Part shown: piece after piece, positions 4,300-35,087 of the stretch | Layout: each line of letters begins with the position of its first letter | How positions within the stretch are numbered: the stretch's first letter is position 1 | Assembly: GCA_013538855.1 (NCBI GenBank) | Contig: JABXJS010000197.1 | Location: 1-43,012, forward strand | DNA: 43,012 bases | Direction: 5' to 3' | From: Herpetosiphonaceae bacterium | Lineage (GTDB): Bacteria > Chloroflexota > Chloroflexia > Chloroflexales > Herpetosiphonaceae | Notes under the pieces: model-generated | Told to the model about the DNA's origin: nothing | Databases searched by the model: none | What the model saw: the letters and a program-made list of their open reading frames with translations, nothing else | Position numbers and translations under genes: made by a program

Positions 4300-6429
4300 C
4301 TAGCGCCAGCCGAGTGAATCGACACGAACACCGAGTGCGCGACCATCAGGGTTGGTGCGATCATAGGCATGCGGCACAAACTGGGTTGATGCGCGTAGCT
4401 CGATGCGGGGGCTTTGGACGGGATCAAGCGGTGCTGGCAGCGGAACATCGATCGTCTGCCAATCCGGGCCAACCGCTTGGGTGAAGATGGGCTGGCCATT
4501 GATCAGGATCGTCAGCTGCGGCGCTGGCAGACCGGCAGGCCGCGGCGCGGCGACACGGATGGACAGCGTATCGGCAGACTGCGGCGGGGCCAGCGTGACG
4601 CTTGCCTGGTCGGCGAACCAGCGAGTCGCATCTGGCTCAGCGGCATAGAAGCCATGGATAAAGCCTAGATCGAGGCCCGCGCCAAGCTCGAGCTGGGCTG
4701 GCGGCGGCGTCTGGGAGAAGCGCAGCTGCGCCCAGCGCTGGAGGTCCTCGCGCGAGGCGGTTTCAAAGGCCAGCTCCGTGCGAGCAGCGGCGAGATCGCC
4801 ACGGGCGCGCAGCAGATCGCCAAGCAGCAAGTGGGGGTAGGGGTGAGCTGGCAGCTGGGCGATAGCCGTGCGCAGCAACTGCTCGGCGCGCTCGGTCTCG
4901 TGCAAGCGCAGCGCAGCGCGGGCCTGGAGCACGCGGGCGAGCACCGAGTCAGGATCGAACTTGAGGGCCTGCGCAGCCTTCGCCTCGGCAGTATAGACAG
5001 GAATGCCAGAGCCGAGCGTGTCGATAAAGGCCCCTGTGGGCGGCGGCGTCGGGTCGGCGAGGGCGACCTCGGCACGCCACAAGCTCCAATGCTTGCGGAT
5101 TAGTCGCACGGTAGTGGCGGGGTAGGCCGCATAGCTCAGGGAAAAGAGCGCGAGGGCCAGCACCAGAGCAAGCGCCGCCAGCGCCGACGGTCGGCTCCAG
5201 CGCCGGCGCTGTATTTCAGCAGACGGAGTGCGCCGCCAGCGAATGTAGGCGAGCGACCAGGCAGCGGCAGGCAGCAGCACCGGCACGAGCGGCAGCCGAT
5301 AGCGATACTCGACGTGAAAAAGCGCGCCAGTGAAAACCGTGTAGAGCGCCCAGAGGGCCAGCACGCTGCGCAGCCCACGCTCCAGCGGCAGCAGCAGCAG
5401 GCCCGCCGCCCCAGCGAGCAGCAGCACAAACCACAGCACATCGCCCAGCACAACCCGCAGCCACGCCTCGGACGGCGGGACCCAGATGGCCGGACGAGCG
5501 AGCAGATCGTCGGTGTGCTCGAAGGCCCAAAAGCGCCGGAACTCGCGCCAGCTTTTCTGCAGCACCCAGCCGGGATGCGACGTGAGCGCCTGTAGCCCCT
5601 GCTGCGTCGCCAGCTTCGAGCGGGCGACACGGTCGTCGCCAAGGGCGTACAGCTGCGCCTTAACCGCCTCGCGCCCAGCCGGATCGTTGTCGAGCCAGAG
5701 ATTTTCGGGGCCGGTGGTGTCGATGAAGATAAAGCCGTGGTAGGTGAGCGCGTTGCGGATGGTCCAGGGCGTAATCGTTAACAGCGCCGCCAGCAGAAAG
5801 ATCACAGCGCGGCGGCCACGCTGAGCGCCAGCAGCGCCGCGCCAGAGCCAGAGCGCACCGAGCGGCAGCAGCGGCAGCGCCACCGAGCGCACGAGGCAGA
5901 CCAGCGCGACGGTCACGCCAGCGAGCGCCGCGCCGCGCCACGGGCCAGCGGCGCGGCGGCCAGTGCGCACCAGCAGCGTGAAGGCCAGCAGCAGGCCCGC
6001 CAGCGTGACCGTCTCGGTCAGCAGCTCGGTGGCATTGAGGGCCAGCGTGTACCAGGCGGCGGTGAGCGTGGCGGCGAGCAGCGGCACACGTCGCGGCAGC
6101 TGCGGCAAGAGCGTGCGCGTCCACCAGTACATCAGCGGGATAGTGGCCGTGCTGACCAGCGCGTTGAGCAGGCGCAGCGCCGTGATGCTGCTATCGGTGA
6201 GGATGGCGAGCAGGGCCAGGCCGAGCGAGAAGAGCGGCGGGCGCATCAGCAGCAGATCGTGGTAGCCCGCGCCGCGAGCGATAGCCAGCGCCTGCTCGAA
6301 GTACTCGCGCTCGTCGCCGCCAAGCGGACGGGCAGCATTCCAGCGCCAGGCCAGCCAGCGCAGCCAAAGGCCGCCGAGCGTGATCAGCAGCAGCGCGATG
6401 GGCGCGCGCCAGCGCTGCCAGCGGCTCAC
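4300..6429 (-). CDS. GT39/ArnT-like membrane glycosyltransferase with TPR and beta C-terminal domains
   Basis: A 709-residue polytopic membrane protein of the PMT/ArnT-like (GT39, GT-C fold) class. The first external loop has the acidic pair expected to be catalytic ('GGDEREYFEQA', Asp39-Glu40), followed by 'MRPPLF' (63-68). About ten hydrophobic segments run to about residue 430. A soluble tail follows: TPR-like helices ('VLARVLQARAALRLHETERA', about 505-575), then a beta-rich domain beginning 'LELGAGLDLGFIHGFY' (about 580-709). Such enzymes transfer a sugar from a polyprenyl-phosphate carrier to lipid or protein on the outer face of the membrane. The start is GTG, overlapping the upstream stop as GTGA (6426-6429), so translation is coupled. 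It is the last gene of the operon and a paralogue of the gene just upstream. Substrate unknown. Confidence 0.85.
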   Translation of the reverse strand: MSRWQRWRAPIALLLITLGGLWLRWLAWRWNAARPLGGDEREYFEQALAIARGAGYHDLLLMRPPLFSLGLALLAILTDSSITALRLLNALVSTATIPLMYWWTRTLLPQLPRRVPLLAATLTAAWYTLALNATELLTETVTLAGLLLAFTLLVRTGRRAAGPWRGAALAGVTVALVCLVRSVALPLLPLGALWLWRGAAGAQRGRRAVIFLLAALLTITPWTIRNALTYHGFIFIDTTGPENLWLDNDPAGREAVKAQLYALGDDRVARSKLATQQGLQALTSHPGWVLQKSWREFRRFWAFEHTDDLLARPAIWVPPSEAWLRVVLGDVLWFVLLLAGAAGLLLLPLERGLRSVLALWALYTVFTGALFHVEYRYRLPLVPVLLPAAAWSLAYIRWRRTPSAEIQRRRWSRPSALAALALVLALALFSLSYAAYPATTVRLIRKHWSLWRAEVALADPTPPPTGAFIDTLGSGIPVYTAEAKAAQALKFDPDSVLARVLQARAALRLHETERAEQLLRTAIAQLPAHPYPHLLLGDLLRARGDLAAARTELAFETASREDLQRWAQLRFSQTPPPAQLELGAGLDLGFIHGFYAAEPDATRWFADQASVTLAPPQSADTLSIRVAAPRPAGLPAPQLTILINGQPIFTQAVGPDWQTIDVPLPAPLDPVQSPRIELRASTQFVPHAYDRTNPDGRALGVRVDSLGWR

Positions 6430-8618
6430 TGTAGCTCCGCCCAGTCGAGCTGAAAGCCCAGCAGGCGCAGCGGCTGCGCAACCTGATCGCGCACGCGCTG
6501 CTCCAGGTCCTGTGGACCAGGAACGAACACCGGGCTATGGAACTCGACGACAACATCAGCGCCAGCGGGCGTGGCGGGCAGCGCCACGCGCAGCTCCTGC
6601 CAGTCGGCGGAGAGCGTGAAGGATTCAAGCGCCGTGCCAGCGACAAAAGGCGTCACGGTCGTCGGATTGGCGTTGGTGGTGTAGCCGCTGGCGTGCAGCA
6701 GCAGCGTCTGCGGCTGGCCAGTGCCAGCGGCGGGGAAGCGCAGCGCAGCGACTGGGCCGCTCCAGCGGTAGTTGGGATCGCTGGCCTCGCGGCTATAGAA
6801 GCCGCGAATGTAGCCATAGTCCAGGCCGGAGCCAAGGTCGATGCGCATTGTTGGCGGCGGATCGAGGTGCTGCCAGGCCCAGGCGGTAGCGTTGGTGATC
6901 TCGACATCGCGGGCCTCGAACAGCTCGCGCGTCTTGGCCAGATCGCCGAGGCGGCGGTAGAGATCGCCCTCGACAAAATAGACATAGCTTGCGAGCAGCG
7001 CATTGGTTGGATCGGCGTCGCGGAGCAACGCCTGCGCCTGCGCAATGCGGCCCTCGTGCTCCAGAATACGTGCATTGAGCAGGGCCAGGCAGGGCAGCTT
7101 CTGATGCGCGGTAGCCGCATCGTGGCGCTGGCGCGCGGCATCAAACTGACCGGCGTTGATCAGCGCCTCGATCTGATCGCACTCGGCGGCATAGCGCAGG
7201 CCAACCAGGCCCAGCCGCGTCTCCTCGATGACGCTGCGGCGATCCGGATCGATCCACTTCGGCCAGTAGGCGTAGGAGGGCAGCACCAGCAGCCAGAGCA
7301 GCGCGGCAGCGCCCCAGGCCAGCCAGCGCCGCTGCACCGACGGCCAGGGCCTGCGCCACTGCACCAGCGCGCAGGCGGCATAGATGAAGAGGAAGGGCAG
7401 CAGCGGCTGGCGAAAGCGATTGATCGCAAAGACCAGCGCGCCAACCAGCACGTTGTAGAGCAGCCAGCCGAGCACAAGGCCCTTGCCACGGCGCTGCTGC
7501 TGCCGGAGCAGACCAAGGGCAGCCAGGCCCACAGCGAGCGCATAGAGCGTATCGTCGCTGAGCAGGCCCAGCAAATGCGGCGCGGGCACCATGCCCAGCG
7601 TATGGCCGGTGCGCAGGCGCTCGGCACCGCCGTAGCGCAGCTGGAGCATGTCAAGCAGCTCACGGCCGGACTTGCGCACGAAGCCAGCGGGGTTCGCGCT
7701 GATCCAGCTACGGCCGAGGGCATAGGCGGCGGACTGGCGGGCGGCCTGCGAGCCAGCCTGCGCAGCACAGACACGGCCGCCGCACAGCGTATCGTGGAGC
7801 TTGTTCTCGTCGCGGCCGGTGGGCAGCGCGCTCTGTGCGCCGAGGGCCAGGTTATAGCCGCCGGTGGTATCGACGAGGATCAGGCCGTCGCCGCCACCCC
7901 AGCGGCGAGTGGCGTAGGCCGACCAGGGCAGCACCAGCACACAGACCGTCAGCGTCAGCACAGCAAGGGCGCGCCCAGCGGGCAGCCAGGCCGCCCACGC
8001 GCGCGTAAGCGGCTGCGGGCGCAGCTGCCAGGCCACCCACAGCGCCACCAGCGGCAGCCAGGTCAGGATGATCGCCCGCGTGAGCGCCGCCAGCCCCAGC
8101 AGCAGCGCCGCGCCAACCAGCCAGCGCCAGCGCCGGGTCTCCGGATCGGCCCAGCGCAGAATCAGCCAGACAGCGGCCATGAACACGGTCAGAAACAGCG
8201 TCTCCGACAGCATGAAAAACGCAAACGAGGCGAAGGAGTAGGCCAGCGCCATGGCCCAGCCACTGATCAGCGCAACACGGCGCTGCTGGCCCACCGGAGC
8301 TAAGCGGGCAGCGACCTGCATGGTCAGCCAGACGGTGAGCACGCTGAGCAGGGCCTGCGTCAAGCGCGGTGCCCACAAGGCTGTCGGGCCAAACACCCGA
8401 ATATGGGCGGCCAGAAACAACACGTAGAGCGGCGGGCGCGTCCAGATCCAGCCATCGAAAAAGCTGAAGCCACGGCCACGGGCCAGCCACGTCGCCGCCG
8501 CCCAGTACTCGCCCTCATCGCTGATCCAGTCGCGGTAGGGCAGCATGCGCCACACGATCAGGCGCAGGGCGAAGGCGACCAGCAGGAGCAAAGGCACATG
8601 CCACGAGCGACGCTTCAC
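6426..8618 (-). CDS. GT39/ArnT-like membrane glycosyltransferase (paralogue of the next gene)
   Basis: This 730-residue GT-C fold protein has the same plan as its downstream neighbour. There is an N-terminal transmembrane helix, the acidic motif 'WISDEGEYWA' (Asp34-Glu35), 'TRPPLYVLF' (60-68), multiple membrane spans to about residue 450, a TPR-like helical segment (about 480-590), and a beta-rich end starting 'IDLGSGLDYGYIRGFYSRE'. The shared tail (LGxGLDxGxIxGFY, then a closing LGxxxDxxxW/L) shows that the two arose by tandem duplication and then diverged widely. The GTG start overlaps the preceding TGA (8615-8618). The extra soluble domains may bind the acceptor glycan or protein; that is inference. 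The donor is probably a polyprenyl-phosphate sugar. Confidence 0.85.
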   Translation of the reverse strand: MKRRSWHVPLLLLVAFALRLIVWRMLPYRDWISDEGEYWAAATWLARGRGFSFFDGWIWTRPPLYVLFLAAHIRVFGPTALWAPRLTQALLSVLTVWLTMQVAARLAPVGQQRRVALISGWAMALAYSFASFAFFMLSETLFLTVFMAAVWLILRWADPETRRWRWLVGAALLLGLAALTRAIILTWLPLVALWVAWQLRPQPLTRAWAAWLPAGRALAVLTLTVCVLVLPWSAYATRRWGGGDGLILVDTTGGYNLALGAQSALPTGRDENKLHDTLCGGRVCAAQAGSQAARQSAAYALGRSWISANPAGFVRKSGRELLDMLQLRYGGAERLRTGHTLGMVPAPHLLGLLSDDTLYALAVGLAALGLLRQQQRRGKGLVLGWLLYNVLVGALVFAINRFRQPLLPFLFIYAACALVQWRRPWPSVQRRWLAWGAAALLWLLVLPSYAYWPKWIDPDRRSVIEETRLGLVGLRYAAECDQIEALINAGQFDAARQRHDAATAHQKLPCLALLNARILEHEGRIAQAQALLRDADPTNALLASYVYFVEGDLYRRLGDLAKTRELFEARDVEITNATAWAWQHLDPPPTMRIDLGSGLDYGYIRGFYSREASDPNYRWSGPVAALRFPAAGTGQPQTLLLHASGYTTNANPTTVTPFVAGTALESFTLSADWQELRVALPATPAGADVVVEFHSPVFVPGPQDLEQRVRDQVAQPLRLLGFQLDWAELQ

Positions 8619-10651
8619 GGCTGCACCTCGACCTGACCAAGCTCGATGTAGTCCGGCCCGGCCGGGCCAGAGTGCGCGGTGACAGGCAGGCGCTGGGCGT
8701 CGATCTCAGGGATGGTCGGATCATACCAGCCGAGCACGACGGTATAGCGGCCAGGCGGCATATCTGCGGGCAAGGGCACAGCGACCTCATCGTGGATGGG
8801 CTGGCCGACCGGCCACTGGCTGGTTGGCAGGCCACCGTAGAGCGGCTCGGTGTCGCGCTGGGCGGCGACCGGCGCGCCGATGGCAGGCAGCAGGTGAATA
8901 AACATCCGATAGCGCTTCTCAAGCGGCTGCTGGGCCTGCCATGTCAACTGCAGCGGCAGTGTGCCGCCTGGATGCAGCGTCGTGGCCGACGACCACGGCT
9001 CTAGCTGATAGCCGAGTAGGTCGATGGCCGCCGCCCAGGTGGCGGTGGGCGAAGCGGGGACAGGCCACGGCGCGCGCAGCTCGAGCGAGCCTGGCTGGAG
9101 CTGGCGCGGAAAGCTCTGGCAGAGCAAGCGCACGCCATTGAAGGCCCAGAAGGGCTGGTCGATGCAGCGCCACTTGCCGTTCATATCAGCAGTCATGAAG
9201 TTAATCCCAACAACGCCCATATCATCTTGCGGATACTGGGGATTAGGCGGATCGATGGTGGCCGCGTTGAGCGGCGCGATCACCAGCCAGGCGCGGCGGT
9301 GGCCAGCCAGCAGCGCCGCGTAGTCGTTGTCGAACTCGCCCTGGGTGTAGCCAAGCGCGCCGACACGCCCGAACGCCTGCGGCTCTGGCAGCGGGTTGGC
9401 GCTGACGCGGCTGGCGTAGTAGCGATAGAGCGGCTTGATATAGGCCGGGTGCACCACAACCACATCGTCAGGCGTGACGTGCTGAGCGAGCGTCGTAAGG
9501 GCAGCGCGATAATCTTCTTTGACCGATGCTCCGCTCCACAAGCCGTAGGGCTTGGTCAGCAAGGCCAGGCTCTGCGGCAGCAGCAGCAGCAGCGCCAGGG
9601 CAGCGGCGGCCCAGCCGGGCAGCGGCAGGCGCTGCATCAGCCACAGCAGGCCAGCGGCGATGAGAATCGACCACAGGCCAAGCACAAAGCTCACATAGCG
9701 CGGCTCGAAGATGGGCAGGCCAAACGCCAGCACCAGCAGGTAGACCAGCACCGGCAGTGCGCCGCAGGTGAGCAGCACGCGTCCAGCCAGCGGCTGACCG
9801 GCCTGCGCCTGCTGCCACAGCGCCCAGCCGCCGAGCACGGCGCAGAGCACGAACGGCAGCAGCAGCAGCGGCACATCGCCAGGCGCACGATCGAGCGTGA
9901 GGCGACCAAGCAGCACCCAGAGCGCCGTCAGCGGCCCGGCGCTGTTGCCGACCGGCGGCGCATTCGGGTCCTGGCGCAAGCCCACGCCAAAACCAATGGC
10001 CATCACAACGCTGAGCGCCAGCGGCACCAGCCACGCCAGACGGCGCGCGCGCGGTGCGAGCGGGGCCTGCCAGACGATCAGCGTCACCTGGCCGATCACG
10101 CTGAGCAGCGCCAGCCGATGCAGCAGCAGACTCAGCGCAACCAGCGCCGCCCAGATCAGCCAGTCGCGGCGTGATCCCGACTGAAGCGCCTGCACCAGCG
10201 CAACCACGGCGGCCGTAATCACGGCCAGCAGCAGGCTATACACCTTGGCATCCTGCGCCTGGAACAGCGCAAACGGATTGAGCAGCAGCACGAGCGCCGC
10301 CAACCCACCGAGTAGCCATCCACCGAAACGCTGCCCAAGCTGAAAGGTCAGCACAACCGCCACGGCTCCGCCCAACGCCGAGGGGAAGCGCAGCGCCCAG
10401 ACGCTATCACCAGCGACAGCGATCCAGCCCTTCATCAGCAGGTGATAGAGCGGATAGCTGGCGCGCGGGCTGAACAGATCGGCGAGCAGCGCGCCCCAGG
10501 AGCGGGTTGTCGCCTGGCTCCAGGTGCCGCCCTCGTCGAGCCAGAGGCTCTGCGCATCGAGCCGAAACAGCCGCAGCAGCAGCGCCAGCAGCAGCACGCC
10601 GAGGCTAGCCCAGAGCCAGCGTGATCGTGATGACAGACGCACAGGCTTCAT
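8615..10651 (-). CDS. GT39/ArnT-like membrane glycosyltransferase
   Basis: A 678-residue integral membrane protein. It starts with an Arg-rich cytoplasmic tip and a membrane helix, then the typical 'QSLWLDEGGTWSQA' loop (catalytic-type Asp39-Glu40), 'YPLYHLLMKGW' and about ten hydrophobic segments to about residue 370. The C-terminal 300 residues are soluble and include a periplasmic-type beta-rich domain ('TLPLQLTWQAQQPLEKRYRM', 'PPGRYTVVLGWYDP'). Similar tails occur in other ArnT-like proteins of filamentous Chloroflexota as far as I recall. The ATG start overlaps the upstream stop by one base (TAATG), which implies coupled translation. It probably transfers a lipid-linked sugar outside the membrane. 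The exact sugar and acceptor cannot be read from sequence. Confidence 0.85.
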   Translation of the reverse strand: MKPVRLSSRSRWLWASLGVLLLALLLRLFRLDAQSLWLDEGGTWSQATTRSWGALLADLFSPRASYPLYHLLMKGWIAVAGDSVWALRFPSALGGAVAVVLTFQLGQRFGGWLLGGLAALVLLLNPFALFQAQDAKVYSLLLAVITAAVVALVQALQSGSRRDWLIWAALVALSLLLHRLALLSVIGQVTLIVWQAPLAPRARRLAWLVPLALSVVMAIGFGVGLRQDPNAPPVGNSAGPLTALWVLLGRLTLDRAPGDVPLLLLPFVLCAVLGGWALWQQAQAGQPLAGRVLLTCGALPVLVYLLVLAFGLPIFEPRYVSFVLGLWSILIAAGLLWLMQRLPLPGWAAAALALLLLLPQSLALLTKPYGLWSGASVKEDYRAALTTLAQHVTPDDVVVVHPAYIKPLYRYYASRVSANPLPEPQAFGRVGALGYTQGEFDNDYAALLAGHRRAWLVIAPLNAATIDPPNPQYPQDDMGVVGINFMTADMNGKWRCIDQPFWAFNGVRLLCQSFPRQLQPGSLELRAPWPVPASPTATWAAAIDLLGYQLEPWSSATTLHPGGTLPLQLTWQAQQPLEKRYRMFIHLLPAIGAPVAAQRDTEPLYGGLPTSQWPVGQPIHDEVAVPLPADMPPGRYTVVLGWYDPTIPEIDAQRLPVTAHSGPAGPDYIELGQVEVQP

Positions 10652-11967
10652 TACAGCAGAATAATCTTCTCGCGGCCAGCGCTCACCGTGTGGGTGGCGT
10701 TGCGCGTGTCCACAATCACCGGCGCGACCGCGACAATGTGGGCGTAGTCGAAGGCGGAGTGATCGGTGATGATCACCACACAGTCGGCCTGGCGCAGCAG
10801 ATCGTCGGTGAGCGGCACGGTGTGATACTCGCGGTTGTGATGGTCAAAGAACGTGTCAATGTGCGGATCGCAGCACACGACCTCTGCGCCATGGTCGAGC
10901 AGCAGCTCCATCACCTTGAAGACCGGCGACTCGCGATAGTCGTCGATGTTTTTCTTGTAGGCCACGCCAAGCAGCACCACCTTCGAGCCATTGACGGACT
11001 TCTGATCGCGGTTGAGCGCCTGGATGACGCGCTCGCGCACAAAGCGCGGCATCATCATATTGATCTCACCGGCCAGCTCGATGAAGCGTGCCGACAGATC
11101 GAACTGGCGCGCCTTCCAGGCCAGATAGAACGGATCGAGCGGGATGCAGTGGCCGCCGAGGCCGGGGCCAGGCGTGAAGCGCATAAAGCCAAACGGCTTG
11201 GTCGCAGCGGCGTCGATGATCTCCCACACATTAAGGCCCATGCGATCACAGATGAGCGTCAGCTCGTTGACCAGGGCGATGTTGACATTGCGAAAGATAT
11301 TCTCAAACAGCTTGGTCATCTCGGCGGCGGCCGGCGACGAGACAACGGTGATTGAGTCGATAAACTGCGCGTAGAACAGCCGCGTCAACTCCGCGCACTG
11401 CGGGGTAACGCCGCCGACGACCTTGGGGATATTTTGAACCTGGAAGTGCTCGGAGCCAGGGTCGATGCGCTCGGGCGAGAAGGCCAGGAAGTAGGTTGCG
11501 CCGACCGTCTGCTGGCAGGCGTCGAACTGTGGCTGGAGCACCTCGACGGTGGTGCCGGGGTAGGTTGTGCTCTCCAGAATGATCAACTGGCCGGGGCGCA
11601 GGCGCTTGGCAATATCGGCGGTGGCCGTCTCGATATAGCTCATATCGGGATCGCGCGAAGCGTTCAGCGGCGTGGGCATGCAGATCAAGATGACATCGCA
11701 CTCAGCGAGGCGCTCGAAGTCGGCGGTGGCCTCGATCAGGCCCGCCTGGCGCAGCTCGGCCAGCTTGGCCGAGGGCACATCGCCGATGTAGCTGGTGCCA
11801 GCGTTGATCATGGCATTGCGCTCGGCGCTGATATCGAAGCCCAGCACGTGAAATCCAACCGAGGCGGCGCGGGCCAGCATCGGCAGGCCAACGTAGCCCA
11901 TGCCGATCACGCCCACACAGGCTTTGTGCTCACCAATTGCGGTGCGCAAAGTCTCAAAGTAGCTCAC
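10651..11967 (-). CDS. Nucleotide-sugar 6-dehydrogenase (UDP-HexNAc/UDP-glucose DH family)
   Basis: A 438-residue cytoplasmic NAD-dependent dehydrogenase that oxidises C6 of a nucleotide sugar to a uronic acid. The Rossmann motif 'VGVIGMGYVGLP' lies at 18-29. 'FSPERIDPG' (163-171) and 'EMTKLFENIFRNVNIALVNE' (216-235) are the conserved central motifs. 'GPGLGGHCIPLDPFY' contains catalytic Cys274. The motifs fit the WbpA/WecC branch (UDP-GlcNAc or UDP-ManNAc 6-dehydrogenase) better than UDP-glucose dehydrogenase, but substrate is not certain. I chose the GTG at 11967 rather than the longer frame from 12018. It has an AAAGGAA ribosome site and overlaps the upstream stop as GTGA, the rule in this operon. 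It would feed activated uronic-type sugars to the neighbouring glycosyltransferases. Confidence 0.9.
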   Translation of the reverse strand: MSYFETLRTAIGEHKACVGVIGMGYVGLPMLARAASVGFHVLGFDISAERNAMINAGTSYIGDVPSAKLAELRQAGLIEATADFERLAECDVILICMPTPLNASRDPDMSYIETATADIAKRLRPGQLIILESTTYPGTTVEVLQPQFDACQQTVGATYFLAFSPERIDPGSEHFQVQNIPKVVGGVTPQCAELTRLFYAQFIDSITVVSSPAAAEMTKLFENIFRNVNIALVNELTLICDRMGLNVWEIIDAAATKPFGFMRFTPGPGLGGHCIPLDPFYLAWKARQFDLSARFIELAGEINMMMPRFVRERVIQALNRDQKSVNGSKVVLLGVAYKKNIDDYRESPVFKVMELLLDHGAEVVCCDPHIDTFFDHHNREYHTVPLTDDLLRQADCVVIITDHSAFDYAHIVAVAPVIVDTRNATHTVSAGREKIILL

Positions 11968-13187
11968 GAGATTTCCTTTGTATACAGTTGCTCTAGACGA
12001 GCGGCGTAGCGTTCCCAAGTGAGTTCAGCTTCGACGCGCTGACGGGCGGCGCGTCCGAGTGCTGCCGCCAGCGCTGGATCGGCGAGCAGGCGCAGGAGGG
12101 CCTGGCTCAGCCCAGCGGGGCTTGCTGGCGGCACCAGCAGGCCGTGCTGGCCATCGCTGATCACGCCGGGCACACCAGCGATACGGCTGGCCACCAGCGG
12201 ACGACCAGCGCCCATTGCCTCCAATAGGGTGTTGGGCAAACCATCGACATTGCCGGAGCGATCGCGAACCGAGGGCAGCACAAAGATATCGGCGGCGTTG
12301 AAGGCGGCGTTGATCTGGTCGCGATGCACGGCGCCGGGGAAGATCACGGCGTGGCCGACACCGAGGGCCGCCGCCGCCGCCTCTAGCTCCGCGCGGCCTG
12401 GCCCATAGCCAGCCAGCAGCAGGCGCACAGCCGGATACTGCTCCAGCAGGCGCGGCAGGGCCTGGATTAAGTAGATAAAGCCCTTCTTTTCCACCATGCG
12501 CCCAATGCTAAACAGCACCGGCGTTGCTGGATCGATGCCGTGATCAGCGCGAAAGCGCGCGCCTGCCGCTGGGTCAGGATAAAACTCATCTGGATGGACA
12601 CAGTAGGGCAGCACATGCAGACGCTGCGGCGGGCCGCCAATCGCGGCAGCGCGTGTTGTGAGATCGCTGGACGGGGCCGTGACCGCCTGGGCATAGCGCA
12701 GCACCAAGCGCGTCAGCAGCGCCACTGGAGCGCTGCGCTCGGCGACAGAGATATCGGAGCCGTGGGTGCTCACCACCAGCGGCAGGCGGCGCTGCAGCGC
12801 GACCAGCCACGCGGGCACGCCGTTGGGAATCGCCCAGTGCGCATGAATCAGATCGAAGCGCAGCTCGGCTGTTAGCCGCCGCAGGCATGACCAGCCCGCC
12901 GCCAGCGCCAGCGGCGCTACCGCCAGCGCCGCAAAGCGCATCTGCACATCGTTTTGCAGGGCGGCAGCATAGCCCCAGACGCGCAGGCGCGGGTGTGGCG
13001 CATAGGCGTAGCGATGAATATGCACGCCGCGCTCGATCGGCTCGCGCCGCAGCTCTGGGTGCTCTGGCACGACCAAGTGGACCTCATGGCCGCGGGCGGC
13101 CACCGCCACAGCGATCTCTTCAATAAATGGAGCCGTCATCTCGCCAGCGTATTTTGGAAACGACGACGCCATCATCAGCACGCGCAC
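11964..13187 (-). CDS. GT4-family glycosyltransferase
   Basis: A 407-residue GT-B glycosyltransferase with a retaining mechanism, expected in the cytoplasm or on the inner membrane face. The N-terminal half has 'MRVLMMASSFPKYAGEMTAP' and 'DLIHAHWAIPNGVPAWL' with 'STHGSD' (140-145). The C-terminal half binds the sugar nucleotide: 'SIGRMVEKKGFIYLI' supplies Arg230 and Lys235, and 'VDGLPNTLLEAMGAG' is the E-x7-E motif, with Asp315 in place of the first Glu and Glu323 as the second. The GTG start lies eight bases after AGGAGG. The gap to the upstream gene is only 9 bp. It is probably a chain-elongating enzyme for the glycan made by this operon. Confidence 0.9.
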   Translation of the reverse strand: MRVLMMASSFPKYAGEMTAPFIEEIAVAVAARGHEVHLVVPEHPELRREPIERGVHIHRYAYAPHPRLRVWGYAAALQNDVQMRFAALAVAPLALAAGWSCLRRLTAELRFDLIHAHWAIPNGVPAWLVALQRRLPLVVSTHGSDISVAERSAPVALLTRLVLRYAQAVTAPSSDLTTRAAAIGGPPQRLHVLPYCVHPDEFYPDPAAGARFRADHGIDPATPVLFSIGRMVEKKGFIYLIQALPRLLEQYPAVRLLLAGYGPGRAELEAAAAALGVGHAVIFPGAVHRDQINAAFNAADIFVLPSVRDRSGNVDGLPNTLLEAMGAGRPLVASRIAGVPGVISDGQHGLLVPPASPAGLSQALLRLLADPALAAALGRAARQRVEAELTWERYAARLEQLYTKEIS

Positions 13188-13196
13188 TCGGGCCTC

Positions 13197-16016
13197 CTAG
13201 CGTTGGCTCGCGCCAGCAGGCACGATCGGCTCAACCTGATTGTAGTCGGATGGAAAGGCATAGATGTAGATCGTGCGTCCTTTGGGAGCCGGAAAAACGG
13301 CCACCCGCTTAAAGCCAGCGGTCTCCTGGCCCTGGAGCAGCTGGCCCAGGGCGATGCGCGCATCATCCTTATTATTTTGCAGCGCGTTGACCAGCAAATA
13401 CTGCGCATTATAATACCGCGCAATCCGCAGCAGCGTGGCCATGTCGCTGGTGTTGGGATTCATCACAGCCGGGCGCTCGGCGTGAAAGTTCAGCTGCCAG
13501 GGCACGCGGGTCATCACGACCGCATCGGGCGGTGTGTGCTCGCGCAGCCAGGCAAACGCCGCCAGGTCGGCCTGCCAGTCGGCCGCCTCGCCGCTCGGGC
13601 TTATTTTATCGCGAATCTCCACCCAGCCCGGCTGCACGGCCAGCACCAGCAGGGCCGCCAGCGTGACCAGCGCCAACGGGCGCAGCCAGCCGCGCGCGAC
13701 ACGGGCGATGCTATCGTGAATCGCCCAGAGGCCCGCAGCGGCCAGCAGCACCAGCAGCGGCACCAGCGGCACAAAGTAGCGCTCTTCGTTGGCGTGCCAG
13801 TACGTGATCAGAAACAGCGTGTATGGGGCGAAGCTCCAGAAGATCAGGCCCAGCCAGCGCAGCTGCCGCCGACGGGCCAGCAGCAGGCCGATCAGCGCCA
13901 GCCAGGAGCCAACCATCAGCCAGTGTGTCGGATCGCTGGAGCCTTGATCCAGGTTGCCAAGCAGCGCGCCTTTGCCACTCAGCGGGCCAAGGCCAGCGCT
14001 GGCTGGCAGCAGATAGCTGCGCACAGCCGCGACCTGGCGCACAGCCTTATCGAATGTGCGCTGAAAGCCCCAGCGCAGCACCCAGCTGCGATCCGGCAGC
14101 CCAAGACCCGGCAGCCCGCCCTCGCTGGTCATCACGCTGTAGATCTTCTCCCAGTCATCGCCAGGGCCAGGGTACTCGAGAATCCAGGCGTCGTACTGCT
14201 CGGTTGAGAACATCGGGCGGCCAAACTCAAGCATATTGCGCAGCACATAGGGCGCGAACACCAGCAGCGCCGGCAGCACCCAGTAGAGCGCCAGGCGCTG
14301 GATATGCGGCCATGGCCGCTCGCTGCGCCGCCACACCTGCCACAACACCCACAGGCCAATTCCCACCGCCACCAGCACGCCGCTCGGCTTCTGCAGACAC
14401 ATCAGGCCAATAATGCTGCCGCTGAGCACAAGCGGCCAGCGCCGTGTCTGATTCCAGGCGCGCCAGATCGTCCACAGGCCCGCCACATAGAACAGGCTAA
14501 AGCCCAGATCGGAGGTGCTGTAGATCTGCAGACGCACAAACAGGCCATTGAGCAGCAGCAGAATCACTGCCACCAGGCCCACGCGGCGATCCCACAGCCG
14601 TGTGCCAATGTGATAGACCAGCAGCGCCAGCAGCGCCATGAACAGCAGGTTAGGCAGCTTGGCCGCCCAGGCCGAAACGCCAGTTAGCGCAAAGAACGGC
14701 GCGATCCACACTGGCTGGAGCAGCGGCCAGGTCTCCTGCACCCGCGTGACGCTGCCGCCAGGATTGAGGCGATAGAACTGGCTGACGTAGTCCACAACCC
14801 AACCGCGTCCATTGATGAGGTTGCGCGCAACAACGCCGTTGTCGGCGTAGTCGGCGTTGCCAAGGTAGGGAATATGCCAGATCACGCTGGTCATATAGCC
14901 AGCCCAGATCAGCAGCACCAGCGTGAGCACCACCAGCAGCGGCCAGCGCCGCAGCTTGATGCGTGCGTTGGCCCAGCCTAGCCAGCTGCTCAGGTCGCGC
15001 CAGCGGATCAGCAGCAGGCTCGTCAGCGCAAACCCAAGCGAGATAACCATGACCGTGTTGGGATGCAGCAGCGGTGCATCCAGCCAGCCGCGCACTGGCG
15101 CATCCAGCCACGTGATCAGCGCCAGCGCTAGCCCGACCACGCTCACCAGTGCCAGCCCGCGCGCCAGCGCTAAGCTGCGCGCCAGCCGCCAGCGTAGCCC
15201 GCCCAGCCACGTGGTCAGCAGCGTGCGCCGATTCCAGAGCAGCAGCAGCAGCGCCAGCAGCAGCAGCGCCTCCAGCACCGGCCAGGCCCATAGCCGCGCC
15301 CACGCCACAAGCAGCGTCAGCAGCCCAGCTACACCCAGGGCGGCCAGCAGCACGCGGCGCGCAGGCCACGTTGTTAGCCCAAGCAGCACAATCAGGGCAG
15401 CGCCGCCGAGCAAGATCGCGCGCGCCGGGCGCACACCGCCGCCCTGCGTGCGCAGCTCTACGCTGTACAGGCGCAGGCCGTGCGGCCGCAGATCGTCGGG
15501 ATACTGCTGCGTGCCAGTAAAGATGGCGGTTGCCGCAGGCTCCGGCAGCACCAGCGGCGATTCGCTCAGACGCAGATCGAGCAGCAGGTCGCTGGAGCGC
15601 AGATCGACCGGAAAGGCAAATGTGGCTAGCTGCGTGGTGGGCGTAAACACGCCCACCGTCCGCCCGTTGGCGAGCACAAACACAGACGGCTGCTTAAGAT
15701 CGCTGCGCAGCACATCGGTGGGCCAGCCCTCGGCGCTGATGGCGACCTGGAGCGCCGTGGCTCCAATGGCGGGGATATGCACGAGGGTGCGCCCGCGCGT
15801 CCAGCGAAAGCGCGCGCCTTGGGCGTCAAGTTCATCGGGGTACACGTAGCCATCGGTTGAGGCCCAGGTGCGCTGCGCCTCGGTCGTGCGCACAAACCAC
15901 TGATCGCCCAGCCCGGCGGTGCGAATCAGGCCATGCGCAGGTGCCTGGTACGCGAGCGAAAGCACGCAGACCGCGCCAACAATCAGGCCCAGAATCAAGC
16001 TAAGGCGGCGAATCAT
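13197..16016 (-). CDS. GT39-like membrane glycosyltransferase with N-terminal beta domain
   Basis: First gene of the minus-strand operon. The open frame extends to 16115, but a good promoter (-10 at 16084-16089) lies inside that extension. I therefore start at the ATG 16016, giving 939 residues. A signal-anchor helix (about 5-25) is followed by an extracytoplasmic beta-rich domain (about 40-195). Membrane segments follow (about 200-340), then the GT-C catalytic core with 'LGNADYADNGVVARNLINGR' (acidic residues 389-392) and about ten more spans. The tail ends 'FPAPKGRTIYIYAFPSD'. No ribosome site precedes the ATG, so an internal GTG a little upstream (16043) is possible. It is much longer than typical ArnT/PMT proteins (500-700). 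It probably transfers a lipid-linked sugar; the extra domain may bind the acceptor. Confidence 0.82.
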   Translation of the reverse strand: MIRRLSLILGLIVGAVCVLSLAYQAPAHGLIRTAGLGDQWFVRTTEAQRTWASTDGYVYPDELDAQGARFRWTRGRTLVHIPAIGATALQVAISAEGWPTDVLRSDLKQPSVFVLANGRTVGVFTPTTQLATFAFPVDLRSSDLLLDLRLSESPLVLPEPAATAIFTGTQQYPDDLRPHGLRLYSVELRTQGGGVRPARAILLGGAALIVLLGLTTWPARRVLLAALGVAGLLTLLVAWARLWAWPVLEALLLLALLLLLWNRRTLLTTWLGGLRWRLARSLALARGLALVSVVGLALALITWLDAPVRGWLDAPLLHPNTVMVISLGFALTSLLLIRWRDLSSWLGWANARIKLRRWPLLVVLTLVLLIWAGYMTSVIWHIPYLGNADYADNGVVARNLINGRGWVVDYVSQFYRLNPGGSVTRVQETWPLLQPVWIAPFFALTGVSAWAAKLPNLLFMALLALLVYHIGTRLWDRRVGLVAVILLLLNGLFVRLQIYSTSDLGFSLFYVAGLWTIWRAWNQTRRWPLVLSGSIIGLMCLQKPSGVLVAVGIGLWVLWQVWRRSERPWPHIQRLALYWVLPALLVFAPYVLRNMLEFGRPMFSTEQYDAWILEYPGPGDDWEKIYSVMTSEGGLPGLGLPDRSWVLRWGFQRTFDKAVRQVAAVRSYLLPASAGLGPLSGKGALLGNLDQGSSDPTHWLMVGSWLALIGLLLARRRQLRWLGLIFWSFAPYTLFLITYWHANEERYFVPLVPLLVLLAAAGLWAIHDSIARVARGWLRPLALVTLAALLVLAVQPGWVEIRDKISPSGEAADWQADLAAFAWLREHTPPDAVVMTRVPWQLNFHAERPAVMNPNTSDMATLLRIARYYNAQYLLVNALQNNKDDARIALGQLLQGQETAGFKRVAVFPAPKGRTIYIYAFPSDYNQVEPIVPAGASQR

Positions 16017-17589: not shown

Positions 17590-17666
17590 GCCCCCGTCGT
17601 CTAGCGGCCTAGGACGCCACCCTTTCAAGGTGGAGATCGTGGGTTCGAATCCCATCGGGGGTACCA
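17590..17666 (+). tRNA. tRNA-Glu (anticodon UUC), copy 1
   Basis: This 77-nt cloverleaf has acceptor arm GCCCCCG pairing with CGGGGGT. The anticodon stem CCACC/GGTGG encloses the loop CTTTCAA, giving anticodon TTC. The T-arm is GTGGG-TTCGAAT-CCCAT, and CCA is encoded. It has its own promoter and a strong terminator 24 bp downstream. Confidence 0.97.
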
Positions 17667-17733: not shown

Positions 17734-17810
17734 GCCCTCGTCGTCTAGCGGCCTAGGACGCCACCCTTTCAAGGTGGAGATCGTGGGTTCGAATCCCATC
17801 GGGGGTACCA
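17734..17810 (+). tRNA. tRNA-Glu (anticodon UUC), copy 2
   Basis: From the eighth base on it is identical to copy 1 (70 bases, including the encoded CCA). It differs in the 5' acceptor strand, GCCCTCG instead of GCCCCCG, which turns pair 5-68 into a U-G wobble. It starts only 9 bp after the T-tract of the preceding terminator, and no clear separate promoter is visible. Confidence 0.95.
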
Positions 17811-18668: not shown

Positions 18669-18735
18669 CGCTGTTTATCCTCGTATCACGCTGGCTCGGC
18701 TAGCGCTCGCCGCTCGCACGCCATCCACCACCATC

Positions 18736-19170
18736 CACCTGCGGGCGCACACAAACGGCCGCGCTCGCCATCAGCGGGCGCTGCGGGAACATCGCGCCTG
18801 CCACCGCGCACCGTGCACCGACCGGACCTCCGCTGGAACCGCCGCGCACCATGCACGCCTCGCCTTCCGCCAGAACCATTCACCTGCGGGCGCACACAAA
18901 CGGCCGCGCTCGCCATCAGCGGGCGCTGCGGGCACATCGCGCCTGCCGCCGCGCACCGTGCACCGACCGGACCTCCGCTGGAACCGCCGCGTACCATGCA
19001 CGCCTCGCCTTCCGCCAGAACCATCCACCTGCGGGCGCACACAAACGGCTGCGCTGGCCATCAGCGGGCGCGGCGGGCACATCGCGCCTGCCACCGCGCA
19101 CCGTGCACCGACCAGACCTCCGCTGGAACCGCCGCTCAGCATGCGCGCCTCGCCTTCCACAACAACAATC
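18736..19170. repeat. Three 145-bp tandem repeats in a gene-free stretch
   Basis: Units begin at 18736, 18881 and 19026, each with CACCTGCGGGCGCACACAAA. Units 1 and 2 differ at about 4 of 145 positions; unit 3 is more diverged, especially after about 19135. Degenerate pieces flank the array on both sides. The unit is not a multiple of three and all frames are open because of composition, so I do not read it as coding. It fills most of the 18669-19322 gap between the regulator and the DUF2834 gene. Confidence 0.95.
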
Positions 19171-28558: not shown

Positions 28559-28630
28559 GCGCCGCGTAGCCGCCGGGCACCCGTTGGGTGGTGCTCACCC
28601 GCTCGTTAGCCGCGATTGCCCAGCGCCGCG
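28559..28630 (-). repeat. Dispersed intergenic repeat, reverse copy
   Basis: Read on the minus strand: CGGCGCTGGGCAATCGCGGC, then a GC-rich imperfect hairpin (GAGCACCACCC/GGGTGCCC), then GCGGCTACGCGGCGC. It has the same order of blocks as the copies at 25.1 and 34.6-37.0 kb. Confidence 0.75.
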
Positions 28631-28871
28631 TATGGCACATCACGCTGCGTAGTGGCGACAGGGCTACTATGTGGTGCGAAAAACGCGCCCGCCTGATCCG
28701 CCCGCCTGCGCCGCGTAGTTGCAGCCCTGCACCCACGCTCGTTAGCCGCGATTGCCCAGCGCCGCGTATGGCACATCACGCTGCGCGGCAGCTGCGCCGC
28801 AAGGTTCGCGTGAAAAACGCGCCCGCCTGATCCGCCCGCCTGCGCCGCGTAGCCGCAGCCCTGCTCGCTCC
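28601..28871. repeat. Imperfect tandem duplication, period about 135 bp
   Basis: A 49-bp block (28601-28649) recurs exactly at 28737-28785. A 36-bp block beginning AAAAACGCGCCCGCC (28679) recurs at 28813. The unit includes the dispersed-repeat core. Confidence 0.85.
28708..28766 (-). repeat. Dispersed intergenic repeat, reverse copy
   Basis: Carries the core GCGCTGGGCAATCGCGGCTA on the minus strand and a GCGCCGCGTAG end, with a shorter middle than its neighbours. Confidence 0.7.
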
Positions 28872-30849: not shown

Positions 30850-31136
30850 AAGAGCGTCTCTTCTATGGTAGCTGCGAGGCCGCGCCGCCGCAGCGCCGTC
30901 GCACAGCCGCGTGCCGCCGCACAGAGAAGTGCGAAGGCAGCGAGCGGTCCAGGCCGCTCTGGGGGCCGAACGAAAGCGATGGCATAGCCGGGCATAGGCT
31001 ACGAGCCTCACTCGTTAGGGTATCACGAGATGCACATCCCTACAAGCGGCCAAAGATAAAAATTTGGTGAACGCGCAGGCCAACGCCGCCAGCGCCCATC
31101 CTAACAGCGCCAGCCCTACCCAGCCGCCCACCGATC

Positions 31137-31145
31137 TGCTACAAT
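31137..31145 (+). promoter_or_regulatory. Extended -10 promoter of the Roco gene
   Basis: TGC-TACAAT, with a weak -35. It lies 45 bp ahead of the ATG at 31190 and inside the longer open frame, which supports the shorter start. Confidence 0.55.
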
Positions 31146-31189
31146 GCCCGCAGTTCCCGCCCAAAGCCCCAGCCGAGAGGAGGCCGCCC

Positions 31190-34100
31190 ATGGACGCCCA
31201 GGCCGTCGCAACCTTCCTAGCCGCCCTCCAGCGCGACAACCCGCACATCGCCTGGCTCCCCGAAGAGCTAGAGCAAATTTATGAGGAGGTGCTGAGCGAG
31301 GGGAGGCTCAGCTTAACCCCGTGGGGGTTACGGCACGATGTAGGCCGAAAAAGCCTGGAGCATACGCCGCTTCGGATACTGCCCGACGAGATTGAACTGA
31401 TCGATGGTCTGAAAGAACTAGATATCCAAAATAACGAACTAGTTGAATTACCAGTCACGATAAGCAAGCTCGCGGCACTGCAAAAGGTTAATGTTAAGAG
31501 CAATGAACTGCCGCTGCTGCCGCAGAAGCTTGAAGCACTAAAAACGCTAGTTCAGCTAGATATTGGCTACAACAAGCTACGCGAGCTGCCTGAGTGGCTG
31601 CAAGATTACACCCAGCTTGAGCAGCTTGGAATTGCAAGATCAAGTGTAGGCAGTCTACCAACATGGCTCACCAATTTCAAAAACTTGACTCATCTTAATA
31701 TCGCCAGCAATGAGCTTAAGACGCTACCGGAGTGGCTCGGCCAACTCACCGCCCTCCAATCCCTCCACCTCAGCAATAATCAACTCACCGCTCTGCCCGA
31801 GTCCCTCGGCCAACTCACCGCCCTCCAACGGCTTGATCTCAGTTCTAATCAACTCACCGCCCTGCCTGAGGCGCTCGGCAAGCTTACGAACCTCCAACGG
31901 CTTGATCTCAGCAATAATCAGCTCACCGCTCTGCCCGAGTCTCTCGGCCAACTCACCGCCCTCCAACAGCTTGATCTCAGCAATAATCAGCTCACCGCTC
32001 TGCCCGAGTCTCTCGGCCAACTCACCGCCCTCCAATCCCTCAACCTCAGTAGGAATCAACTCACCATTCTTCCGGAATCGCTCGGCCAACTCACCGCCCT
32101 CCAACAGCTTGATCTCAGCAGGAATCAACTCACCACTCTGCCCGAGTCGCTCGGCCAACTCGCCAACCTTAAGGAGCTTGATCTTCTGGATAATCTCCTC
32201 ACTAGGCTGCCAAAAAATCTATTTTTCTTAAAGAATTTGCGCAAACTTTATCTTGGCAATAACAAACTTATACAGGTGCCAGCAGCTATCACAACACTTG
32301 CATTTCTTGAACGACTCGATCTAGCCAAGAATCAAATTACAGCACTACCAGTCAACCTAGCCGAGCTAAAGCATCTTGAGACTTTACAGCTCAAAAACAA
32401 CCAGCTCAAGACGCTGCCACCCAAGCTTGATCAGCTAGCACGCCTCAGACAATTAGATCTCTCCGGCAACCCGCTGCTTATTCCGCCGGAGATTTTAGAT
32501 AAACCAAGCAATGTCAAGACCATTCTTGAGTACTACTACCAGCCGCGGCGGGCTATGGCGGAGGCCAAGGTGGTGCTCGTGGGGCAGGGCGGCGTGGGCA
32601 AGACGTCGCTGATCCGCCAAATGATCGACGGCGACTTCAACCCCAACGAGAACAAGACCGAGGGCATTCAGATTCGCCACTGGCCCATCCACGACGCCGC
32701 GGGCCAGCAGTATCGCTGCAACATCTGGGACTTTGGCGGGCAGGAGATTATGCACGCCACCCATCAGTTCTTCATGACCCAGCGCACGCTGTATGTGCTG
32801 GTGCTCGACGCCCGCTCCAGCGACGAGGACAACCGCCTGGAGTACTGGCTCAAGCTCATCGAGAGCTTCGGCGGCGACTCGCCGATCATCATCGTCGGCA
32901 ACAAGACCGACCAGCACCCGTTTAGCCCGGATCGACGGGCGCTCCAGCGCAAGTACCCGCAGATTCGCGCCTTCTATCCCACCTCCTGCGAGCGCGGCGA
33001 CGGCCTCGCCGCCCTGCGCGCCGCCCTGCCCGCCCACGTCCTCGACCTGCCGCACGTCCACGATCAGATACCGATCACCTGGTTTGACGTCAAGCAGCGC
33101 CTGGAGCAGCTGGAGCGCGACCACATTCCCTTCGACAGCTACATCGAGCTGTGCGAGCAGGCGGGCATCAGCTACGGCTGGGAGCAGCAGCAGCTCATCC
33201 GCTTCCTGCACGACCTCGGCGCAGTGCTCAACTTCCGCGACGACCCGCGCCTAGAGGAGACCAACGTGCTGCGGCCCGACTGGGTGACGCAGGCGGTCTA
33301 CGCCATCCTCAACGAGCCGTCGCTGACCACTCAGCACCACGGCGTGCTCGACTGCCGCCAGCTCGGCGACATCCTCGACAACAAGCGCTATCCCCGCCGC
33401 AAGCACTACTTCATCATCGAGATGATGCGCAAGTTCGAGCTGTGCTTCTACCTCGACGACAACACCCAGCAGCGCGTGCTCATCCCCGACCTGCTGCCGC
33501 CGGAGGAGCCGGACACCGGCGAATGGGACGATGTGCTGGCCTTCGAGTACCACTACGACGTGCTGCCCGGCAGCGTCATCTCGCGCTTTATGGTGCGCAT
33601 GGAGCACCGCATCGACGCCCACACCTACTGGCGCAACGGCGTGGTGCTGCGCCAGCCCGAGGACGGCAATCGCGCCCTCGTGCGCGCCGACCGCGAGGCC
33701 AGGCAGATCATCATCTGGGTTGCTGGCCCGCCCGCCACGCGCCGCCGCTTCCTCTCCGAAATGCGCTCGCAGTTCGAGGCCATCCACCGCTCGATCAAGA
33801 AGCTCACGCCGCAGCAGGTCGTGCCCATCCCCGGCCACCCCGCCATCAGCGAGGACTACGACTACCTGCTCCAGCTGGAGCAGATGGGCGAGCAGACGTT
33901 CATCCCGCGCGGCCTGCGTGAGCGCATCGCCATCCGCCAGGTGCTCGACGGCATCGAGGCCCCGCAGCAGCGCCAGGAGCGCCAGATCACCGCGATGCTC
34001 GACAAGCAGCTCAAGGGCGAGCAGATGGAGCACATGCGCGACTTCAGCCTTGGCGCGCTCCAGTCCCTCGCGCAGACCTACCGCAGCAACCTGGCCACGC

Positions 34101-34228
34101 TTGAGCTACAGATCGCCCAGCACGGCCTCCAGCCGCCAACCCACCTCATCACCCAGCGCGACGAGAGCAAGCGCCGCCTAGAGCTGCTGGAGCAGCTGAT
34201 CGCGGAGCGCGGCCCAAGCATGCACTAA
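31190..34228 (+). CDS. Roco protein: LRR-Roc GTPase-COR
   Basis: This 1012-residue multidomain GTPase starts at an ATG six bases after GAGAGGAGG. Residues 1-60 are a short N-terminal domain shared with the LRR-only gene downstream. About 65-445 hold some 16 leucine-rich repeats of 23 residues (consensus LTALPESLGQLTALQxLDLSxNQ). The Roc domain follows: P-loop 'GQGGVGKT' (465-472), 'DFGGQE' (514-519) and 'NKTD' (571-574). The COR domain runs from about 640 to the end ('LRPDWVTQAVYAILNEPSLT', 'VLIPDLLPPEEP'). Bacterial Roco proteins are dimeric GTP-dependent switches, related to human LRRK2; their bacterial roles are mostly unknown. There is no kinase or other fused effector. The LRR part is AT-richer than the GTPase part, suggesting a mosaic. 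Confidence 0.94.
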   Translation: MDAQAVATFLAALQRDNPHIAWLPEELEQIYEEVLSEGRLSLTPWGLRHDVGRKSLEHTPLRILPDEIELIDGLKELDIQNNELVELPVTISKLAALQKVNVKSNELPLLPQKLEALKTLVQLDIGYNKLRELPEWLQDYTQLEQLGIARSSVGSLPTWLTNFKNLTHLNIASNELKTLPEWLGQLTALQSLHLSNNQLTALPESLGQLTALQRLDLSSNQLTALPEALGKLTNLQRLDLSNNQLTALPESLGQLTALQQLDLSNNQLTALPESLGQLTALQSLNLSRNQLTILPESLGQLTALQQLDLSRNQLTTLPESLGQLANLKELDLLDNLLTRLPKNLFFLKNLRKLYLGNNKLIQVPAAITTLAFLERLDLAKNQITALPVNLAELKHLETLQLKNNQLKTLPPKLDQLARLRQLDLSGNPLLIPPEILDKPSNVKTILEYYYQPRRAMAEAKVVLVGQGGVGKTSLIRQMIDGDFNPNENKTEGIQIRHWPIHDAAGQQYRCNIWDFGGQEIMHATHQFFMTQRTLYVLVLDARSSDEDNRLEYWLKLIESFGGDSPIIIVGNKTDQHPFSPDRRALQRKYPQIRAFYPTSCERGDGLAALRAALPAHVLDLPHVHDQIPITWFDVKQRLEQLERDHIPFDSYIELCEQAGISYGWEQQQLIRFLHDLGAVLNFRDDPRLEETNVLRPDWVTQAVYAILNEPSLTTQHHGVLDCRQLGDILDNKRYPRRKHYFIIEMMRKFELCFYLDDNTQQRVLIPDLLPPEEPDTGEWDDVLAFEYHYDVLPGSVISRFMVRMEHRIDAHTYWRNGVVLRQPEDGNRALVRADREARQIIIWVAGPPATRRRFLSEMRSQFEAIHRSIKKLTPQQVVPIPGHPAISEDYDYLLQLEQMGEQTFIPRGLRERIAIRQVLDGIEAPQQRQERQITAMLDKQLKGEQMEHMRDFSLGALQSLAQTYRSNLATLELQIAQHGLQPPTHLITQRDESKRRLELLEQLIAERGPSMH
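31739..32221 (+). repeat. Seven near-identical 69-bp LRR-coding units
   Basis: Units repeat every 69 bp (31739, 31808, 31877, 31946, 32015, 32084, 32153) around ggccaactcaccgccctcca, with few changes even at silent positions. This points to recent expansion or gene conversion. Flanking LRRs on both sides are much more diverged. Confidence 0.95.
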
Positions 34229-35031: not shown

Positions 35032-35087
35032 AATACCCTATCAATCAGCAGCAGAGCGCCGTGCGCACAGTGAGCAGAGGAGGCCCT

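Follow-up and report, generated by a model that had tools for sequence, protein, structure and literature searches.

A conserved operon of GT-C glycosyltransferases with a possible role in the envelope glycan of Chloroflexales

Introduction

Six tightly coupled genes of a Herpetosiphonaceae bacterium (order Chloroflexales) encode four GT-C enzymes, a GT4 glycosyltransferase and a nucleotide-sugar dehydrogenase, and their order recurs across families of the order. We tentatively propose that this operon supplies the sugar-transfer steps outside the cytoplasm for an envelope-glycan pathway common to the Chloroflexales, with a peptidoglycan-linked wall polysaccharide as its most likely product. 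The genes and their coupling, the GT-C fold (in models of A and E), the acidic sites, the homology of the accessory modules, the conservation and the synteny were computed directly. The conserved gene set provides a concrete list for testing the envelope glycan of the Chloroflexales.

Organization of the operon

The window analysed here, 43,012 nucleotides long, makes up an entire contig of a 6.3-Mb, 100%-complete genome, and the close relatives of the host in profile searches include Herpetosiphon and other Herpetosiphonaceae. The operon spans positions 16016 to 4300 on the minus strand. Its genes are lettered A to F in the order of transcription, and G denotes a paralogue of the E/F type (Table 1). 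A encodes a GT-C enzyme, B a GT4 enzyme, C a nucleotide-sugar dehydrogenase and D-E-F three further GT-C enzymes. The original prediction had four GT39-like enzymes in a row, whereas B and C in fact stand between A and D-E-F. The tight joining of the six genes that it described was borne out at every junction: A and B are separated by 9 bp, GTGA overlaps join B/C, D/E and E/F, and TAATG joins C/D. An alternative start of gene A is possible at a TTG codon (16115). Promoter and terminator scans of the region gave counts close to chance (2 against 1.2 expected and 9 against 6.8 expected).

Other features of the window include two tRNA-Glu genes in tandem close to the operon (17590-17666 and 17734-17810), both with the anticodon ttc. 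A secreted-looking protein of 1015 aa, with a weak PPC domain match, converges on the operon end and contains GQIYFT repeats encoded by a perfect 18-bp repeat (4.1 copies, 1560-1633). A 145-bp unit is present in three head-to-tail copies at 18730-19158 (95% matches) and a 134-bp unit in two copies at 28600-28864 (86% matches). A Roco protein (LRR + Roc + COR-A + COR-B, 1054 aa; 31064-34228) lies beside a second LRR protein (610 aa; 35061-36893), and the 69-bp LRR repeats of this region were also detected as tandem repeats.

Table 1. Genes, domains and candidate catalytic site of the operon, in window positions.
Feature	Position	Strand	Description
Gene A	13197..16016	-	GT-C enzyme, 939 aa; ATG start
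Gene B	11964..13187	-	GT4 glycosyltransferase, 407 aa
Gene C	10651..11967	-	Nucleotide-sugar 6-dehydrogenase, 438 aa; GTG start
Gene D	8615..10651	-	GT-C enzyme, 678 aa
Gene E	6426..8618	-	GT-C enzyme + TPR + CBM-like module, 730 aa
Gene F	4300..6429	-	GT-C enzyme + TPR + CBM-like module, 709 aa
D389-Y-x-D392 of A	14841..14852	-	Candidate catalytic site; D389 and D392 invariant in 39/39 aligned sequences
Module of A (~28-190)	15447..15935	-	CBM6/35/36-like beta-sandwich; DSSP strands, Foldseek, hhalign to E/F tails
Module of E (~592-729)	6432..6845	-	CBM-like; Foldseek, hhalign
Module of F (580-709)	4303..4692	-	CBM-like; hhalign to E tail and A N-domain
TPR-like helices of E (~463-584)	6867..7232	-	DSSP; TPR_19 weak; hhalign to F TPR 98.1%
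TPR stretch of F (~480-560)	4750..4992	-	TPR_17 + TPR_19 over Pfam cut-off
C-terminal domain of D (520-678)	8618..9094	-	D-specific; hhalign at most 2% to A/E/F module

Fold and active site of the GT-C enzymes

Pfam PMT_2 (PF13231) is matched above its cut-off by A (58 bits), D (32 bits) and E (29.7 bits). F has no PMT_2 match in the Pfam search and is classed as GT-C because of its profile homology to E, whose GT-C core aligns with the core of F at hhalign 100%. The prediction of four polytopic GT39-like enzymes therefore holds in that all four are GT-C-like, but the family match itself does not extend to F. AlphaFold2 models built from homologue alignments reached a pLDDT of 88.2 and pTM of 0.88 for A, and 85.3 and 0.86 for E. 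The top VIA match of both models is ArnT (PDB 5f15), with Z 25.8 and 4.4 Å over 440 residues for A, and Z 21.9 and 3.5 Å over 320 residues for E, where structures within 1 Z of ArnT (Pmt4 at 21.5, OST) count as tied. The fold lists also include PMT, OST, Emb/Aft and PimE. A consists of helix 1, a CBM-like module, extra helices, a GT-C core from about residue 350 and an ArnT-like C-terminal alpha/beta domain, and its structural match extends across the C-terminal domain of ArnT. All four enzymes belong to the GT-C superfamily, A and E by modelled fold, and D and F by profile homology together with hydropathy. A single-sequence PDB search with A returned only chance-level matches to unrelated viral chains, the D profile had no match in the PDB, and A had no match in the phage collection.

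Plain membership of the ArnT or PMT families was considered and rejected, as ArnT sequence models gave no match for the operon proteins (NCBIfam, E ≤ 0.1) and neither PMT (PF02366) nor the MIR domain of eukaryotic PMTs was matched in A, D, E or F (Pfam, E ≤ 1).

The catalytic acid of GT-C enzymes is located after the first core helix. The acidic pairs of A, D, E and F sit at the first extracytoplasmic loop, after the first GT-C core helix; beside the A motif (Table 1), D34-E35 of E (22/22 aligned sequences), D39-E40 of F (15/15) and D39-E40 of D (25/25) are invariant. Judged by these residues, the four enzymes appear active, and they very probably transfer lipid-linked sugars on the extracytoplasmic side. 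The ArnT fold match, the invariant acidic pairs and the candidate synthases described below thus support the idea that these are enzymes of ArnT/PMT type presumably using lipid-linked sugars to modify one surface product.

Accessory domains

A different soluble domain had been proposed for each GT39 member, but the modules of A, E and F form one family. Residues 23-226 of A align with the tail of E (hhalign 98.5%, E 2e-15) and the tail of F (98.4%, E 9e-15), and the two tails align with each other (99.8%), where negative controls of the modules against unrelated domains stay at or below 2%. An HMM of the E tail (HMMER) matched 68 domains in A-family ORFs, with a further 34 matches in F and 19 in G, and an HMM of the D tail matched D-family ORFs only (57 matches). 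These cross-matches place the module directly behind helix 1 in A and at the C terminus in E and F. Foldseek relates the module to the CBM35 chains 2w3j and 2w46 for the A model, and to CBM6E 8j3x and CBM36 1w0n for the E model, with low whole-query TM-scores because only one domain is covered. E and F also have their TPRs in common, and only the tail of D differs, so the argument from four different domains to four different roles is not supported. The module is not confined to the operon, since it follows helix 1 in a 642-aa membrane protein encoded on the opposite strand near A in Herpetosiphon loci (e.g. L049:197-2122, minus strand), a protein that otherwise has a weak DUF6077 match only.

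The TPRs of E and F would fit a protein acceptor too, and it is possible to picture A, D, E and F acting like PMT or TMTC enzymes in the O-glycosylation of secreted proteins, with the TPRs binding the substrate protein. The layout of GT-C part and TPRs in E and F is that of TMTC1-4 (PMC7801869, available text), Pmt4 and OST are among the top fold matches, and Foldseek matched the TPR domain of AspH. We nevertheless consider protein O-glycosylation rather improbable, given a module that is carbohydrate-binding-like, the lack of any MIR or PF02366 match in the four enzymes at E ≤ 1, and genes B and C, which fit a polysaccharide route.

Conservation and gene order

Profile counts over 82 Chloroflexales genomes covered A, D and the E-type, the order total of A being counted by hand. 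A is found in 76 of these genomes at E ≤ 1e-60 (missing in G039, G042, G052, G074, G075 and G077), D in 75 and the E-type in 77; the E profile also picks up F and G, and its best match reaches E ≤ 1e-100 in 74 of the 82. Outside the order, 9 of the 76 genomes searched in the class have weaker relatives of A (E ≤ 1e-60), so A is not strictly order-specific.

Of the 53 named loci with 1500 nt or more of sequence downstream of A, 48 have B within the next 2.5 kb (20 of 73 loci were left out for having too little downstream sequence), the exceptions being L128, L135, L138, L139 and L141. In the 33 loci where this sequence reaches 9500 nt or more, A is followed by B-D-E-F in 7, B-D in 6, B-C in 5, B-D-E-F-G and B-D-E in 3 each, and B-C-D-E-F-G and B-C-D-E-F in 2 each, and five further patterns were each seen in a single locus, one of which shows no match at all. 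The recurring order A-B-(C)-D-E-F-(G) is kept across families at 36-61% identity in A, and so exceeds chance.

The genes read A-B-D-E-F-G in Chloroflexus islandicus, A-B-D-E-F in Ca. Oscillochloris fontis and A-B-D in Roseiflexus, where E-F-G is found in G013 (taken for Roseiflexus); Herpetosiphon has A-B-C together. Among the matches listed, the Roseiflexaceae-type genomes G013, G016 and G022 have E-F-G in one block apart from A, and genome G007 has D, E and G each alone elsewhere. Outside the order, a Ca. Chloroheliaceae locus carries A, B, C and E in order with gaps and a Thermomicrobiales locus reads A-B-E. The G homologue of the host genome lies on another contig (C138). Scattered homologues in relatives had been named as evidence against the operon, and here the outcome is mixed: the set is split in Herpetosiphon and Roseiflexaceae but together in Chloroflexaceae and in family f2, and the unlinked parts persist.

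The neighbourhoods hold further genes. A PAS/histidine-kinase/receiver hybrid sensor stands directly before E-F-G in two Roseiflexaceae-type genomes (L186:6011-8353 and L189:14988-17516). Just upstream of distant Chloroflexota relatives of A lies a membrane protein of 1031-1092 aa (L133, L137, L138, also L139 and L140), and in the three cases tested (L133, L137, L138) it has a polysaccharide-deacetylase-like domain scoring near the cut-off.

In a tree built from 81 proteins of the E, F and G types, three separate clades appear (supports 1.0, 0.73 and 1.0), which indicates that the paralogues predate the families of the order and that the array is old. Together with the 31-37% pairwise identity of E, F and G within the host genome, the three clades led us to reject the idea that the GT-C genes arose recently by tandem duplication at this locus.

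Genes B and C

B matches Pfam Glycos_transf_1 (129.6 bits) and C matches TIGR03026 (414 bits), in agreement with the predicted pair of one GT4 enzyme and one NDP-sugar dehydrogenase. The nearest solved chain to B is PimB' (3oka, E 1e-25), and BshA-type enzymes are likewise among its nearest solved relatives. This relationship recalls the mycobacterial PIM/LM/LAM route, and in a lipoglycan pathway of that kind B would glycosylate a membrane lipid and the GT-C enzymes would elongate it outside. PimE, Aft and Emb do appear in the fold lists of A and E, and D matches the MT1671 mannosyltransferase model, but weakly, at 40 bits, far under the model cut-off of 900. The similarity of B is moreover broad within GT4, with BshA, MshA and others matching too, and the cluster holds no inositol or lipid-anchor gene, which leaves a lipoglycan product unlikely.

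The nearest PDB chains to C are 4r16 and Cap5O (UDP-ManNAcA/Cap5O type). C scores 273.7 bits against the curated WecC model, below its cut-off of 459, and Epimerase_2 (PF02350), the WecB-type UDP-GlcNAc 2-epimerase, has no match in the 100%-complete host genome, where 11 of 14 control genomes are positive. The assignment of C as the WecC (UDP-ManNAc dehydrogenase) of a WecB/WecC pair was therefore rejected, and from the epimerase result we infer that C is more likely a UDP-GlcNAc than a UDP-ManNAc 6-dehydrogenase. C-like dehydrogenases are present in 41 of 41 genomes searched. In two Chloroflexus genomes (L194, L195) the C homologue lies amid ABC-2 exporter-, GT-, polysaccharide deacetylase-, ATP-sulfurylase- and sulfotransferase-like genes, named by eye among the genes listed. 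In the Chloroflexus and Roseiflexus loci read, C stands apart from the cluster, so that what it makes may go into a different polymer.

Candidate partner functions elsewhere in the genome

No initiating phosphoglycosyltransferase, flippase or polymerase had been seen in the window. The cluster holds none, and the 4 phosphoglycosyltransferase and 6 Polysacc_synt flippase matches of the host genome are all on other contigs. The operon likewise has no polyprenyl-phosphate sugar synthase (Pfam, NCBIfam). The original prediction suggested looking for such a synthase elsewhere, and candidates were found in the rest of the genome. Of 27 GT2 matches in the genome, seven were classified, and three of these (C126, C128, C280) align with AglJ-type polyprenyl-phosphate sugar transferase models over the greater part of their length and into the C-terminal region, with every score under the curated cut-off. 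All of the 41 genomes searched encode LCP-family ligases (PF03816), which allows for a wall-attached glycan, and because they are also common in the controls (7 of 14) their support for wall attachment is weak.

The flippase and phosphoglycosyltransferase matches elsewhere, along with the apparent ABC-transporter and sulfotransferase-type cluster around C in two Chloroflexus genomes, would be consistent with the GT-C enzymes decorating an exopolysaccharide or capsule, where they would put side sugars on a polymer exported by Wzx/Wzy or ABC genes elsewhere. Capsule genes usually differ strongly between genera, but A, D and E are found in nearly all genomes of the order, and such decoration seems quite unlikely to be the role of the set.

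Proposed pathway and product

The donors, sugars, acceptor and product of the pathway are those we infer as follows. In the cytoplasm, C would oxidise a UDP-sugar, in the most likely case converting UDP-GlcNAc into UDP-GlcNAcA, and B would lengthen an acceptor attached to a lipid or polymer. On the outside of the membrane, the four GT-C enzymes would each draw one sugar from a polyprenyl-phosphate carrier and add it to the glycan, either during its growth or once it is finished. The CBM-like modules would keep the acceptor polysaccharide close to the active sites of A, E and F, and the TPRs found in E and F may hold a partner or protein. It is plausible that several sugars are added to one polymer.

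Chloroflexus possesses a peptidoglycan-polysaccharide complex. Such a complex is also on record for Herpetosiphon, as cited in the available text of PMC3368417. We recognised no paper on the genes for the peptidoglycan-bound polysaccharide of Herpetosiphon in the open literature, a scope outside which most subscription journals fall. Some Chloroflexales look diderm yet have no LPS genes, with the envelope described as unresolved, and Roseiflexus is reported without the outer layer seen in some members of the order (PMC7332563, available text). A set serving only an outer-membrane-like layer was rejected, because Roseiflexus, reported without that layer, has A-B-D and (G013) E-F-G. The presence of the genes in Roseiflexus, Chloroflexus and Viridilinea likewise speaks against a component that belongs to the outer layer alone, and the near-universal presence of A, D and E argues against a variable capsule. 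Near-universality, occurrence in both envelope types and the recorded peptidoglycan-polysaccharide complex make a wall polysaccharide our first choice.

Comparison with known systems

ArnT (GT83; PDB 5f15, 5ezm) has the GT-C core in common with A and E, and A also has an ArnT-like C-terminal periplasmic domain; a polyprenyl-phosphate sugar would be the donor in both. Identity in the structural alignments is only 13-20%, and the CBM-like modules and TPRs are extra here. The hallmark of ArnT is the transfer of L-Ara4N to lipid A. Chloroflexales are reported to be without LPS (PMC7332563, available text). The GT39 enzymes Pmt4 and Pmt1-Pmt2 have the GT-C fold in common with A and E (Z 20-23), and PMT_2, a broader model than PF02366, is over its cut-off in A, D and E.

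TMTC1-4 resemble E and F in having a GT-C membrane part followed by TPRs (PMC7801869, available text). E and F differ from them in having fewer TPRs, an extra CBM-like module and a place in a bacterial operon with a GT4 enzyme and a dehydrogenase, and DUF1736, the TMTC loop between TM7 and TM8, has no match in E or F (Pfam, E ≤ 1). Three-component systems (GtrA/GtrB/Gtr; GT136) use a polyprenyl-phosphate sugar donor and a GT-C enzyme outside the membrane (PMC11127046, available text), as would be the case here, but they have one GT-C enzyme where the operon has four. The synthase and flippase genes beside the GT-C enzymes, a hallmark of three-component systems, are absent from the operon, and none were recognised in the syntenic clusters.

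GT-C enzymes and GT-C arrays are already known. In the open literature we found no description of the present combination of four GT-C enzymes, a module common to opposite ends, TPRs and order-wide conservation, nor any paper on GT39 glycosyltransferases of Chloroflexota or Chloroflexus. The mycobacterial Emb/Aft/PimE array also comprises several paralogous GT-C enzymes, which build one wall glycan from lipid-linked sugars and have a fold common to A and E; it belongs to another phylum and carries other soluble modules, and none of its sequence models matched the operon enzymes (Pfam, NCBIfam). A more far-reaching reading, which we hold to be doubtful, is that A-G form a glycan-assembly machine that has not been described before and corresponds, in the Chloroflexales, to the Emb/Aft array. 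Its paralogous GT-C enzymes, of ancient origin and several of them bearing a carbohydrate-holding module at one end or the other, would build a peptidoglycan-bound polysaccharide both in diderm-like envelopes (Chloroflexus, Viridilinea) and in those that appear single-layered (Roseiflexus).
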